From the NCBI GenBank assembly GCA_018661775.1, contig JABJHO010000029.1:1-35688 (forward strand): DNA of 35,688 nucleotides, in the 5' to 3' direction. The translations under genes and the position numbers were made by a program. Positions 8,295-29,995 of the stretch are shown in pieces (within the stretch, counting starts at the first letter, position 1; each line of letters starts with the position of its first letter). This DNA comes from Candidatus Magasanikiibacteriota bacterium. Its GTDB lineage: Bacteria > Patescibacteriota > Patescibacteriia > Magasanikbacterales > UBA922. The notes beneath the pieces are model-generated. The model was not told the origin of the DNA and did no database searches. It saw only the letters and a list, made by a program, of their open reading frames with translations.

Positions 8295-8768
8295 TTAAGG
8301 GATAAAGAGCCAAAGTTGACACTCATTGTCTACTGCTCTAAATGGGCACATAGTCTTTTGCGCTTCTTGGACTCTGTCACAAGGTTTGCATGTGGCACAC
8401 CATGGAACTATATTCCATGTGGAAATAGTTGCTTTTGCCCAATTAAACTTTTCTACTTGTTTTACAACTTTCTTGTTGTGGGTGATAAGCATGAGTTTAT
8501 TCACATTATTTTTCATTAGGGTAGAAAATACTTTACTAGATAAACCTTTACCGCGGTGTATATGGTTTACCCAAAGAGTTCCTAACTCTCTCCAATGTGG
8601 ATCAGGCGTTTCCCATAACGCACCAAAAGCGATAATTTCTCCATTTTCCTCCTCATACGTAGCGTAGTTATTATACACAAGGTCTTGTAGTGTTGCGCCG
8701 GTAATACGTGGCAAAAGTAAAGCATCTTCTTTTTCTAGTTCTGTGACAAGAGTATGCCATTTTTTCAT
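8295..8768 (-). CDS. GNAT-family N-acetyltransferase-like protein with Cys-rich C-terminus
   Basis: IAFGALWETPDPHWRELGTLWVNHIHRGKGLSSKVFSTLM resembles the GNAT core; SD AAAGGAGG upstream on the minus strand. Confidence 0.72.
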   Translation of the reverse strand: MKKWHTLVTELEKEDALLLPRITGATLQDLVYNNYATYEEENGEIIAFGALWETPDPHWRELGTLWVNHIHRGKGLSSKVFSTLMKNNVNKLMLITHNKKVVKQVEKFNWAKATISTWNIVPWCATCKPCDRVQEAQKTMCPFRAVDNECQLWLFIP

Positions 8769-10859: not shown

Positions 10860-12215
10860 TTACAAAGAATCAATATGATTCACGAGTGCGTTTCCCCAGG
10901 GTGTAAATACACACGGTGTGTTGGTGTCGCAACCATCAAGAATATGAAAAAACCATTCTCCAGCGCTAAATTCTGCACTTTCAAACAAGGTGTGAATACC
11001 AATATTTTTTTCTAAGTTTTTTGCATGGTTTTCTTGTACAATTTTACTATAGCTTAGGAGCCACTCTTTGGTTTTTTGTGTGTCCCCAGAAGAGAGTCCA
11101 ATTTCTGCTATTGTTATTAGACTGTTCTTGTACCTCTTGGCGGTGTTGAAGATAGCTCGAGAAAAATATCTACTGCTTGGAGAAAAATCCATTTCCGGAA
11201 GGGGCATTTGCAAGAATAAGGTTGGTGTGGGCTTTATTAATACAGCTTCTTCCTTGTTTTGCATTGTTCCGTAATAAGTTATACCAACAGTAAACGGAAT
11301 TGTTTGGCTATAATATTCCGAACACTCTCTTGAGAAAAAATTATCTACACAACTGTTAACAAGTGCGTCTAGAAGCCACCAGTTAAACACATAGTCAAGT
11401 ATAGGGTCAAGTGTATCTTCTTCTTTTTTTACTCGAATATTTTTTGCAACCGCTGGCTCCCATTGTGCCTCTTGAATACGTTTTCCACCTTCATGTACAG
11501 CGTCTCTTAGGTTGATCATGGCTGAGTAGAGCCCTGCTATAGCTCTTTTTCCGCCCGGTGGCCAGTTACCGTTTCCCAGGTAGCTGTTAAACAGCATCGC
11601 AACAGGTTCGTTTATAAGGTAAACACGGGTTCCTGTTGGCAAAATTGGCTTGAACAAACGGATTACATCGCTTACGTATGCAATATATGTGTTTTTGGCT
11701 TCTGGGTTTGCCCAACCAGATCGTGCGATTTGTGCTGATCCGCCTGGTTTGTGGAGTGAAGCTGGGTAGCTGTCATGGTGAGAAAGTGTTAGTTCTATGA
11801 CAAAACCAGCTTCCTGTAGGTTTTGGACTGTATCCACAATATTGTTTCTCCATGTGATATTACCAAAACATGGCCAAGAAAGAGAGAGGCGAAGTGTTGG
11901 TATTTTTTCTCCTATTAGTGAAAAAGCTTTTTTTGCAGCTTGTGAAAATTTTCCTAAGCTTCTGAACCTTTTAACATATTGTTCTTGTAGGGACACACTT
12001 GCGGATTCTCCTGATTCTTTTAGTTGTGAAAAGAGCATTGTCCAGCCACTTGGGCATATCTCTTCTGATAAGCTTTCTGTTACAAGCTGGTTGGTAGAAG
12101 AGACGGCTGTCCAAGAAATGTTTGTTCTGTATACTGTCGGCACGTCTGGTGTCGTGTCGCATGACAACAAAGTATACGTTAAAGATATAACACAAATAAT
12201 CGCACGTGTGTTCAT
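10860..12215 (-). CDS. predicted secreted lipoprotein with glycoside hydrolase family 1-like TIM barrel
   Basis: Signal peptide/lipobox MNTRAIICVISLTYTLLSC; GH1-like LRLSLSWP, ELTLSHHDSYPASL, GW(A)NPEAKNTYIAYVSDVIRLFK, YLINEPVA (NEP) and LITIAEIGLS (TENG-like). SD AAAGGAGG upstream of the ATG. Confidence 0.72.
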   Translation of the reverse strand: MNTRAIICVISLTYTLLSCDTTPDVPTVYRTNISWTAVSSTNQLVTESLSEEICPSGWTMLFSQLKESGESASVSLQEQYVKRFRSLGKFSQAAKKAFSLIGEKIPTLRLSLSWPCFGNITWRNNIVDTVQNLQEAGFVIELTLSHHDSYPASLHKPGGSAQIARSGWANPEAKNTYIAYVSDVIRLFKPILPTGTRVYLINEPVAMLFNSYLGNGNWPPGGKRAIAGLYSAMINLRDAVHEGGKRIQEAQWEPAVAKNIRVKKEEDTLDPILDYVFNWWLLDALVNSCVDNFFSRECSEYYSQTIPFTVGITYYGTMQNKEEAVLIKPTPTLFLQMPLPEMDFSPSSRYFSRAIFNTAKRYKNSLITIAEIGLSSGDTQKTKEWLLSYSKIVQENHAKNLEKNIGIHTLFESAEFSAGEWFFHILDGCDTNTPCVFTPWGNALVNHIDSL

Positions 12216-23405: not shown

Positions 23406-23753
23406 ATGACTAATGACCGTTTTGCGCGATTTATTGGAGGTAGTGTTAAACTAGTGTCCCATTTAAATGATATAGCATATGGAGTGTGTGCAGGTATTGA
23501 ATTAGATGATTACTTTTGTTATGTTTTTGTAGAACATTGGAGCGCTTCTCCAAATTCTACTGTTCCTGTAACGCCCGATGAAAGAATATACAAGATATTG
23601 AAAAGCCCAATTCGCTATCTAGAGTCAAGTGTGATTATTATGGAAAGTAGTTCAAAACTAGAAATTCTACGCCCTAGTTTTAGTGTTGGTGGTTTATATA
23701 TAGAAAGAGTTGAGCACGAGAGTAATAGTGGATCTTTTAACACACAGATATAA
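23406..23753 (+). CDS. hypothetical protein (115 aa), monocistronic
   Basis: SD AAAGGAGA upstream of the ATG at 23406, strong promoter and intrinsic terminator. Confidence 0.75.
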   Translation: MTNDRFARFIGGSVKLVSHLNDIAYGVCAGIELDDYFCYVFVEHWSASPNSTVPVTPDERIYKILKSPIRYLESSVIIMESSSKLEILRPSFSVGGLYIERVEHESNSGSFNTQI

Positions 23754-26857: not shown

Positions 26858-26934
26858 TGGCGGACCGGACGGGGCTCGAACCCGCAACTTCCGCCGTGAC
26901 AGGGCGGTGCTCTAGCCAATTGAACTACCGGTCC
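26858..26934 (-). tRNA. tRNA-Asp (anticodon GTC), 3' CCA encoded
   Basis: GGACCGG/CCGGTCC acceptor, CCGCC-CTGTCAC-GGCGG anticodon arm, GCGGG-TTCGAGC-CCCGT T-arm, GCCA. Confidence 0.94.
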
Positions 26935-27010: not shown

Positions 27011-27157
27011 CTACAATGATCCATACATAATCTCATGAAGAAGTTGGCCTGGAGTTTTTTCTTTTGCCATGCGCTTTATTCGCTTTGCATTTCTTTTCAA
27101 GCGAGCGACAAGCCTTCTTTGCTTCTCTATCTGGTTGTTCTTTTTTCTTCTCCCCAT
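27011..27157 (-). CDS. putative 48-aa highly basic small protein
   Basis: MGRRKKNNQIEKQRRLVARLKRNAKRIKRMAKEKTPGQLLHEIMYGSL; preceded by a consensus promoter on the same strand. Shorter than the ORF-track cut-off. Confidence 0.55.
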   Translation of the reverse strand: MGRRKKNNQIEKQRRLVARLKRNAKRIKRMAKEKTPGQLLHEIMYGSL

Positions 27158-27216: not shown

Positions 27217-27245
27217 ATAATACTATAATCCAGAATATATGTCAA
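27217..27245 (-). promoter_or_regulatory. sigma70-type promoter of the 48-aa ORF
   Basis: Minus strand TTGACA-N17-TATTAT. Confidence 0.65.
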
Positions 27246-27357: not shown

Positions 27358-27539
27358 AAAAAAAGACCTGCACTATGTTCGATACGAGTATTGAGGTAAA
27401 GGAGGGGAACCTCGCTACTCAAGCATCGAACATGCTACAGGTCTTTTTTGCTATACTGATGAGTATGTTCAGTACGAGTGTAAGTAAAGGAGGGGAACTT
27501 ACAACTCAAGCACCGAACATATTCATCACTATATTCAGA
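27358..27539 (-). ncRNA. candidate small RNA with two tandem hairpins presenting identical UCCCCUCCUUU (anti-SD-like) loops
   Basis: Hairpins at 27458-27527 and 27364-27444, both with loop AAAGGAGGGGA on the plus strand; consensus promoter at 27546-27574 and terminal stem AGACCTG/CAGGTCT followed by T6-7. Exact 5' end inferred. Confidence 0.82.
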
Positions 27540-27545
27540 CGCTCT

Positions 27546-27574
27546 ATTATAGCATGGTATGACTGTTTTGTCAA
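27546..27574 (-). promoter_or_regulatory. perfect sigma70 consensus promoter of the candidate sRNA
   Basis: Minus strand TTGACA-AAACAGTCATACCATGC-TATAAT, 17-nt spacer. Confidence 0.9.
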
Positions 27575-27617: not shown

Positions 27618-27655
27618 ATAAAAAACAACACCCACGGCTTTCTGTGGGTGTTGTT
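27618..27655 (-). terminator. rho-independent terminator of topA
   Basis: Minus strand AACAACACCCAC-AGAAAGCC-GTGGGTGTTGTTTTTT. Confidence 0.9.
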
Positions 27656-27658
27656 TCA

Positions 27659-29995
27659 CTATTTTTTTGGCTTTTTTGGGGCAGGCTTCTTTTTCTTTGC
27701 CGCGGTCTTCTTTCTTCCTTTACGGCCGGGTTTTGCATTTTTTAACATTTCTATACATTGTTCTAGTGTGTAGTTTTCAGGGTGCTCTTCGTCTTTTGGT
27801 ATGCGTGCATTTTTTGTGCCGTCCGTAATATATGGACCATACGGGCCACGCAGTATTTGTATACCTTCTTCTACAAAAGTACGAATAATCTTTTTTGCCT
27901 TTTCTTCTCTTCCAAGAGTTATGATTTCTTTTGCTTCTTCAAGTGTAATGGTGTAGGGGTCTTTTTCTGCTTTTTTGATAGAGAAGTATTCTTTACCTAC
28001 TTGTACATATGGTCCAAACCGCCCCACATTAGCCTTGATGTCTTGCTCTTCATTATCCTTACCAAGTGTTCTTGGAAGACTGAGTAGTGTCAATGCCTCG
28101 TCTAGGGTAATGGTTTGAATCATTTGCCCTTCACGGAGAGATGCAAAACGTGGTTTTTCTTCATCATCTTTTGTTCCAAGCTGCACAAACGGTCCGTACC
28201 TTCCTATTTTGGCAGACACTGGTTTTTTGGTTTCTGGGTCTATACCAAGTTCTTTGGCATGAGATATGTCTTCGCGAGAAACGTGTTCTGTTTTTTCTAC
28301 AATGGTTTCGTGGAATGGTATGTAAAAAGCTTTCACGATAGGTTTCCACTCTTTTTTACCCTCTGCTATTGCGTCTAAGTCTTCTTCCATTTGGGCGGTA
28401 AAACTGTAATCAACTATTGCGGTAAAGTGTTCTACGAGCACTTCATTGACAATATGCGCAACATCAAGTGGAAGAAATTTTTTATTTTCATCCCTGTCGA
28501 CATATTTTCTTGCTTCAATGGTTGCTATTGTTGGTGCGTAAGTAGAAGGGCGGCCAATACCTAGTTCTTCCAATGTTTTAATGAGGGTTGCATCAGAATA
28601 GCGAGCTGGTGGTTGAGTGAAGTGTTGTTCTGGGGTAAGCTCTGAGCAGGCCATGTTATCTTTTACGGCAGTTTCTGGGAGAGTGTCTTCTTTTACCGTC
28701 TGAGGGTATAAGCTGAGCCAACCAGGAGATGTAATAATTTGACCTGTTGCTCTAAACCCATACACTTTTTGGGTTTCTGTACTTTCTATATCTATCGTTG
28801 TCTTGTCCAGCTTTGCATCGCTCATTTGGGTGGCAACAGCTCGTTTCCAGATCAAAGAATAGAGTTTAAGCTGTTGTGGCGTAAGATACCCAGATATAGC
28901 TTCTGGGGTTTTGTTTGGGTCTGTGGGCCGAATCGCTTCGTGAGCCTCTTGGGCACCTTTTGTTTTTTTTGCGTACACCCGTGTTTTTGGTGCACAAAAG
29001 TTTTCACCGTAGGTATTACGAATAAAATGTTGGGTTTCTGATAAAAATTTTGTCGAAAGGTTGTTTGAATCTGTTCGCATGTAGGTAATTAATCCAACAT
29101 GCTCGGATCCTATGTCTACACCTTCATAGAGTTGTTGTGCCAGGCGCATGCTTTGTTTTGAGGAGTATCCCAACTTTTGGTTTGCTTGCTGCTGGAGTGT
29201 GGATGTTCTGTATGGAGGTGGGGGAGTGCGCTTTGCTTCTTTTTTTTCTATGCTCGAAACAGTGTATTTTTTGTCTTTTAGGTCAGAAAGAAACGTATCA
29301 ACCTGTTCTTTGTTTTCTATTGCCAGTTTTTTTAGTTTTTTTCCGTCTACGGTGTTGAGTTTTGCTTCAAAAGTGTGGTCGGTGTTGTCTTTTTTGGAAA
29401 ACACACCTTTAAGAGACCAGTACTCTTGGCTATTAAAGGCGTCACGTTCTTTTTCTCTTTCTACAACAAGCCTTACGGCAACAGACTGTACGCGTCCTGC
29501 AGAAAGCCCGGGTGAAACTTTTTTCCATAAAAATGGTGAAAGCTCATAACCAACCAATCTATCAAGCACACGCCGCGCCTGTTGGGCATCAACAAGCTTT
29601 TGATCTATATGTCTTGGGTGCTGCAGTGCTTCTTCTACCGCATGTTTTGTAATCTCATGAAATGCAATGCGCTGTGCACGGTCTGGGTCAATGCCTAAAA
29701 TTTGTGCCAAGTGCCAAGAGATCGCTTCTCCTTCTCTGTCTTCATCAGTGGCAAAAATAATATTATTTTCACATTTTTTTGCTAGCTCCTTTAACTTTTT
29801 TACCTGCTGTGTCTTGTCTGGCGAAACACGATATTGTGGGGTAAATGTGCCATGCTCTGTGTCTATTCCCATGGTGCTTTTTGGAAGATCACGCACATGC
29901 CCAAATGAGGATGTGACAATATAAGACGAACCAAGGAATTTGGATATAGTTTTTGCTTTTGTAGGGGATTCTACGATAACGAGTGTTTTTGGCAT
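27659..29995 (-). CDS. topA: DNA topoisomerase I
   Basis: TLVIVESPTKAKTISKFLG, FATDEDREGEAISWHL, GLITYMRTDSNNLS, GIGRPSTYAPTIATI; C-terminal basic tail AAKKKKPAPKKPKK. Confidence 0.97.
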   Translation of the reverse strand: MPKTLVIVESPTKAKTISKFLGSSYIVTSSFGHVRDLPKSTMGIDTEHGTFTPQYRVSPDKTQQVKKLKELAKKCENNIIFATDEDREGEAISWHLAQILGIDPDRAQRIAFHEITKHAVEEALQHPRHIDQKLVDAQQARRVLDRLVGYELSPFLWKKVSPGLSAGRVQSVAVRLVVEREKERDAFNSQEYWSLKGVFSKKDNTDHTFEAKLNTVDGKKLKKLAIENKEQVDTFLSDLKDKKYTVSSIEKKEAKRTPPPPYRTSTLQQQANQKLGYSSKQSMRLAQQLYEGVDIGSEHVGLITYMRTDSNNLSTKFLSETQHFIRNTYGENFCAPKTRVYAKKTKGAQEAHEAIRPTDPNKTPEAISGYLTPQQLKLYSLIWKRAVATQMSDAKLDKTTIDIESTETQKVYGFRATGQIITSPGWLSLYPQTVKEDTLPETAVKDNMACSELTPEQHFTQPPARYSDATLIKTLEELGIGRPSTYAPTIATIEARKYVDRDENKKFLPLDVAHIVNEVLVEHFTAIVDYSFTAQMEEDLDAIAEGKKEWKPIVKAFYIPFHETIVEKTEHVSREDISHAKELGIDPETKKPVSAKIGRYGPFVQLGTKDDEEKPRFASLREGQMIQTITLDEALTLLSLPRTLGKDNEEQDIKANVGRFGPYVQVGKEYFSIKKAEKDPYTITLEEAKEIITLGREEKAKKIIRTFVEEGIQILRGPYGPYITDGTKNARIPKDEEHPENYTLEQCIEMLKNAKPGRKGRKKTAAKKKKPAPKKPKK

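Follow-up and report, generated by a model that had tools for sequence, protein, structure and literature searches.

What kind of element lies behind topA on the minus strand of this contig, and what could it do in the cell? A preliminary description of the window (the whole 35,688-nt stretch of DNA analyzed here) had pointed to a promoter, two tandem hairpins with identical 11-nt loops and differing inner stems, and a terminator. All of these parts are present on the minus strand, at the following positions:

27546..27574, minus strand: sigma-70-type promoter of the sRNA, TTGACA-N17-TATAAT, from sequence reading
27451..27530, minus strand: hairpin 1, without U-tract, loop UCCCCUCCUUU at 27486-27496; fold z -7.0; 64.3 bits under model R1, whose seed includes this copy
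27358..27443, minus strand: hairpin 2, which with its U-run forms an intrinsic terminator, loop UCCCCUCCUUU at 27398-27408; fold z -11.3; 75.5 bits under R1, whose seed includes this copy too
27358..27540, minus strand: sRNA transcript of ~180 nt, predicted from promoter and terminator, starting ~7 nt past the -10 box
27619..27653 (about), minus strand: terminator-like hairpin of topA, between topA and the sRNA, sequence CAACACCCAC..GTGGGTGTTGTTTTTT
27659-29995, minus strand: topA, just upstream of the sRNA
27011..27157, minus strand: very basic ORF of 48 aa, MGRRKKNNQ..., from sequence
26861..26934, minus strand: tRNA gene downstream of the RNA

Anatomy of the element

On the minus strand, TTGACA occupies 27574-27569 and TATAAT 27551-27546 with a 17-nt spacer between them, and hairpin 2 pairs from 27443 to 27361, its T-run ending at 27358. 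The folding energies are -37.7 kcal/mol (hairpin 1) and -47.8 kcal/mol (hairpin 2); the z values given above are relative to dinucleotide shuffles, 0 of 200 of which were equally stable. The inner stem reads GUAAGU/ACUUAC in one hairpin and GAGGU/ACCUC in the other. Genome-wide, TCCCCTCCTTT is found at three sites, the third of which (contig 56) lies outside any such hairpin. Because topA has a terminator-like hairpin of its own ahead of the promoter, the window RNA appears to be transcribed as a unit of its own.

The 48-aa ORF has its own promoter-like TTGACA-N17-TATTAT at 27217-27245. It is a conserved, same-strand downstream neighbor of the RNA in up to ~19 genomes, is not always present, and has no match among Pfam or NCBIfam families. 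A tRNA is located on the same side of the RNA at L006, L015, L028 and L035 as well.

A conserved RNA family in Magasanikbacteria

A search with the loop pattern in the same GTDB family retrieved seven further hairpins of the same architecture. R1, a covariance model built from nine sequences, matches 41 of the 46 family genomes and at least 60 of the 86 genomes of the order (Ca. Magasanikbacteria), with best E-values of 1e-10 to 1e-26, the match counts being limited by fast filters and the E-values coming from a short calibration. Three genomes of the order scored as lacking the RNA (G060, G073, G079) do contain the hairpin on direct inspection, the fast filter having missed it. Among the five family genomes without a match, G038, G039, G043 and G044 are also without a detected rplT, and in G033 rplT runs off the contig end. 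Nearly every genome of its own GTDB family carries the RNA, which is also widespread in its class, probably ABY1 from the GTDB placement.

In an alignment of 70 Magasanikbacteria hairpins (68 distinct), which was fitted to the model and hence leans towards structure, standard pairs fill 94.4% of the pair cells, compared to 38-46% in controls with one side of each pair shifted by 1-3 columns. Two-sided compensatory change is seen at 29 of the 31 base pairs of these 70 hairpins, and the covariation score of this alignment is 0.721 versus 0.292 +/- 0.009 after shuffling. Both the sliding control and a MAFFT alignment of nine sequences agree with the model-fitted result. The 8-nt loop CCCUCCUU is identical in 70/70 hairpins. 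Selection on structure plus loop sequence, which had been proposed from the covariation between the two window hairpins, is thereby borne out at the level of the order.

The locus had been put forward as a candidate new sRNA. Covariance-model searches recovered homologs throughout the order and the class, and a cmscan of the element against Rfam 15 gave no family at or above the gathering score, with only far sub-threshold chance matches. In the open-access literature we found no account of this RNA, or of any sRNA, in the Magasanikbacteria lineage. The structured-RNA family is real, not a product of chance, and previously undescribed.

A mobile repeat was considered and rejected, since genomes carry 1-3 copies and those linked to rplT all share its orientation; so was a phage or viral origin, the four pattern matches in viral contigs not fitting the model. 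Scores of the model on the antisense strand mirror those of the hairpins themselves. On the minus strand of G030, at C5:149867 (in L290), a possible divergent second hairpin with a CACCCUCCUUC loop was observed.

Promoter, terminator and genomic setting

A TTGACA/TATAAT-like promoter (TTGACA-N16-18-TATAAT, at least 10 of 12 matches) is positioned directly upstream of 52 of 61 first-copy homologs (~85%), versus 4% in shuffles. None of the 9 copies standing second or third in a tandem array has such a promoter directly upstream, which is what a single promoter for all hairpins of an array would predict. A U-tract ends most final copies in Magasanikbacteria, and some tandem copies are without it. 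Given the promoter upstream and the U-tract at the end, the element appears to be mostly a free-standing sRNA gene of 85-180 nt, in line with the preliminary call of a new structured sRNA gene with predicted promoter and terminator. A promoter and terminator of its own and a conserved unpaired seed are features of the functional class of trans-acting base-pairing sRNAs, and both are found here.

Most often the element is located 12-300 nt behind rplT of infC-rpmI-rplT; in the window genome and in G001, its sister, it follows topA. Copies at a distance from rplT, in the window and in G001, G009, G010, G013, G030 and G047, have kept the loop unchanged. This retention argues for action in trans, and a role in cis on the rplT operon can therefore not be the general explanation. 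No good promoter precedes the hairpin in G004, G005 and G026, where it is located 12-38 nt behind rplT and where the RNA may be released from the rplT transcript. As a separate observation, a 164-aa protein (MNIKLLSRKYNY...) adjoins the element in G009 and G010, and a similar protein is encoded in G030 (L104, L111, L082, downstream of the element). The only family match is a weak one to DUF6782, a putative metallopeptidase family.

A second variant in class relatives

The weaker matches outside the order represent a second variant with a loop that is mostly YCUCCUCCU(U) and with strong covariation of its own (22 of 29 pairs). R3, the model of this variant, matches at least 34 of 192 sampled class genomes from many families, five of these genomes belonging to the order; these counts are lower bounds. 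In a phylum sample in which 24 candidates per genome were scored, R3 matched no genome outside the class, and the RNA was not found in the sampled genomes of other Patescibacteria classes.

In this second variant a promoter is usually present, and many copies are without U-tract and are followed by a secreted-protein gene led by a Shine-Dalgarno (SD) sequence. At the 8-kb element loci of the relatives, signal peptides, called by a crude rule, occur in 9/9 SD-led genes versus 18/62 others (p = 6e-5). The order promoter, YCUCCUCCU-loop hairpin and secreted SD-led gene is seen at L162-L172 and L382-L412, where a Wzz-like gene often adjoins. Some leaders share, by eye, a further motif like CAATMAAAWCGA.

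Shine-Dalgarno use in the host genomes

The preliminary description had proposed that the loop could pair with AAAGGAGG ribosome-binding sites. All 12 genomes checked have an intact 16S 3' end, GGAUCACCUCCUUU, with the anti-SD. Our genome-wide gene tests relied on simple ORF calling and covered the complete genome G026 and about half of G030 (573 kb). For 223 orthologous core genes of these two genomes, GGAG/GAGG/AGGA occurs in 4.9% versus 4.6-4.8% in shuffles, which amounts to no SD, and a U precedes the start codon at -1 in 91% (U-AUG starts). The core genes of G026 and G030 (L231-L270, L312-L321; L283-L311) thus apparently follow an SD-independent initiation mode, and no description of SD-less initiation in the Magasanikbacteria lineage was found in the open-access literature. 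Similarly, infC, rpmI and rplT carry no SD in about 59 genomes, and cis-control of this operon by SD pairing was rejected for Magasanikbacteria on that ground. Because the core genes sampled in G026 and G030 have no SD, general blocking of ribosome-binding sites is untenable for core genes and was rejected as a role across all genes. The proposed pairing thus fails as a general rule and keeps as its candidates only the minority of SD-led genes.

This minority is distributed unevenly. In G026, AAGGAGG is located upstream of 38/553 lineage-specific versus 1/277 core genes (p = 2e-6); in the 573 kb of G030 it precedes only 1/526 classified genes, with the loop fully kept. Across 46 genomes there are ~742 AAGGAGG-N4-8-ATG sites versus ~408 for the reversed control; accepting 6-nt matches as SDs gave too much noise to be of use. 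Of the 26 ORFs called in the window, 3 are led by an SD and the majority of the others start with U-AUG, the start caller used here preferring a T at -1, unlike the one behind the test of 223 core genes. Strong or extended SDs, mostly RGGAGGUGA, precede rpsU in 30/30 Magasanikbacteria genomes read (L352-L381). G001 has GAGAGG as its rpsU SD, which fits the loop poorly. Strong SDs are limited to a minority made up of rpsU and lineage-specific genes. Signal peptides are found in 16% of the SD-led genes of G026 versus 11% (p = 0.17, not significant), and G030 has no signal-peptide enrichment among its SD-led genes. Also in G030, a possible hairpin showing two AAGGAGG motifs before a terminator was noted at C5:202151-202169 (in L293; ~202140-202175).

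Comparison with known systems

The alpha-r14/NfeR1 and cuckoo RNAs, including CcsR1-4 of Rhodobacter, consist of several hairpins with an identical unpaired anti-SD motif, CCUCCUCCC, and variable stems; NfeR1 has a sigma-70 promoter, and CcsR is associated with a small protein gene (PMC10746234, PMC10253847). These alphaproteobacterial RNAs are the closest analog, as had been recognized beforehand: in both cases identical anti-SD loops are displayed on hairpins with strongly differing stems. The loops themselves are different, being CCCUCCUU in Magasanikbacteria and mostly YCUCCUCCU in the class relatives instead of CCUCCUCCC. In addition, the RNA described here belongs to an unrelated phylum, matches no Rfam model, forms long single-helix hairpins, neighbors infC-rpmI-rplT and resides in hosts with SD-less core genes. 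The DUF1127 protein of the CIN1 locus was not found, and the 48-aa neighbor has no family match, as stated above. Consequently, the likeness appears to be one of kind, not of descent, and by sequence the RNA is not a member of that family.

Unpaired C-rich motifs for which pairing with SD regions is reported or proposed are also found in the UCCC-motif sRNAs of Staphylococcus, in LhrC of Listeria and in the icaR 3'-UTR. Structures, phylum and genomic setting differ from those here, homology having been compared via Rfam only.

In the Bacteroidia, the anti-SD is hidden by bS21/bS18/bS6 and rpsU controls its own expression, according to the available part of one account (PMC9976891). The combination of SD-less mRNAs, an intact anti-SD and a strong rpsU SD in Magasanikbacteria resembles what that part describes, and the strong rpsU SD also recalls Flavobacteriales. 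An RNA of this kind does not feature in the available part of the account (PMC9976891). By analogy, the rpsU SD pattern suggests that anti-SD control or occlusion of the Bacteroidia kind, together with bS21 autoregulation, may exist independently in this lineage.

Proposed mode of action and alternatives

The element is a conserved and mostly free-standing sRNA gene. A strong consensus promoter precedes 1-3 long hairpins in tandem, the invariant loop contains CCUCC, and a terminator is present in most Magasanikbacteria. We propose that it acts as an antisense RNA masking the SDs of a minority set of SD-led genes, a best reading to which we assign a probability of just under one half. The loop would pair in trans with AAGGAGG-type SD sequences and translation would be blocked. 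Ordinary genes here do not use an SD, so the effect of the RNA would be selective and limited to the few SD-led mRNAs, i.e., those of lineage-specific, lipoprotein and secreted-protein genes and possibly rpsU. In the class relatives, the version in the leader of an SD-led gene may act in cis. The window holds three candidate targets:

10860..12215, minus strand: SD-led (AAAAGGAGGTTACAAAATG), lipoprotein-like gene with a weak Glyco_hydro_1 match below cut-off
8295..8768, minus strand: SD-led (ACAAAGGAGGCAAAAAATG), GNAT-like gene
23406..23753, plus strand: SD-led (ACAAAGGAGAGTGGTATG), without Pfam family; predicted loop-TIR duplex -10.9 kcal/mol

For a duplex with AAAGGAGGG, the loop reaches -15.9 kcal/mol and the 16S tail -12.2 kcal/mol at the same site. 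Against masking, G030 has hardly any AAGGAGG targets, yet it keeps the loop, and the SD-led genes of G026 are not significantly enriched in signal peptides. There is also no excess of AAGGAGGG targets to go with the constant first C in CCCUCCUU. The GAGAGG SD of G001 weakens the case for rpsU as the only direct target.

The main rival to SD masking is that the RNA mimics the 16S rRNA 3' tail, its CCUCCUU loop being bound by anti-SD-hiding protein(s) (bS21/bS18/bS6, as in the Bacteroidia) or by another binder of the 16S tail, which it would titrate or report. CCUCCUU is indeed common to the loop and the 16S end in the 12 genomes checked, the SD-less core genes and the strong rpsU SD parallel the Bacteroidia, and retention of the loop even where AAGGAGG genes are few fits such a role. 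In addition, the available part of one source reports bS21 in the OLE RNA complex (PMC12054373). We nevertheless regard a mimic as unlikely: immediately before CCUCCU, Magasanikbacteria have C and the other copies mostly U or C where the 16S rRNA has A, so that the likeness is imperfect at an invariant site.

Still less probable is a cis-acting leader or 3'-UTR element that would control the SD-led secreted gene behind the hairpin in the class relatives and terminate infC-rpmI-rplT in the promoterless Magasanikbacteria. The order promoter-hairpin-SD gene in many relatives and the promoterless hairpins close behind rplT in G004, G005 and G026 speak for it, whereas most Magasanikbacteria copies have their own promoter and terminator, infC, rpmI and rplT offer no SD to pair with, and the hairpin is retained away from rplT. 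It is very unlikely that we are dealing with an ordinary strong terminator or structural RNA with an incidental loop sequence. The U-tract at the end of most copies would suit a terminator, but the 8-nt loop is constant in 70 hairpins while nearly all stem pairs vary, the element has its own promoters, and there are tandem copies without U-tract. The most economical, though unproven, interpretation is that the RNA masks the SDs of the few SD-led mRNAs.

Implications

One source (PMC9868632) puts Patescibacteria at one third of the world's microbial diversity. Bacteria in which SD-based initiation has largely been abandoned might retain a class-wide, strongly promoted anti-SD RNA as a switch or filter reserved for the few proteins that depend on an SD, encoded by lineage-specific, secreted-protein and possibly foreign genes; this is a tentative idea that we consider doubtful. 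Most genes in these ultra-small bacteria have no SD, and the RNA could therefore control the few that do. An anti-SD RNA in a setting where core mRNAs are without SD makes it testable whether an RNA can separate two translation initiation modes in one cell.
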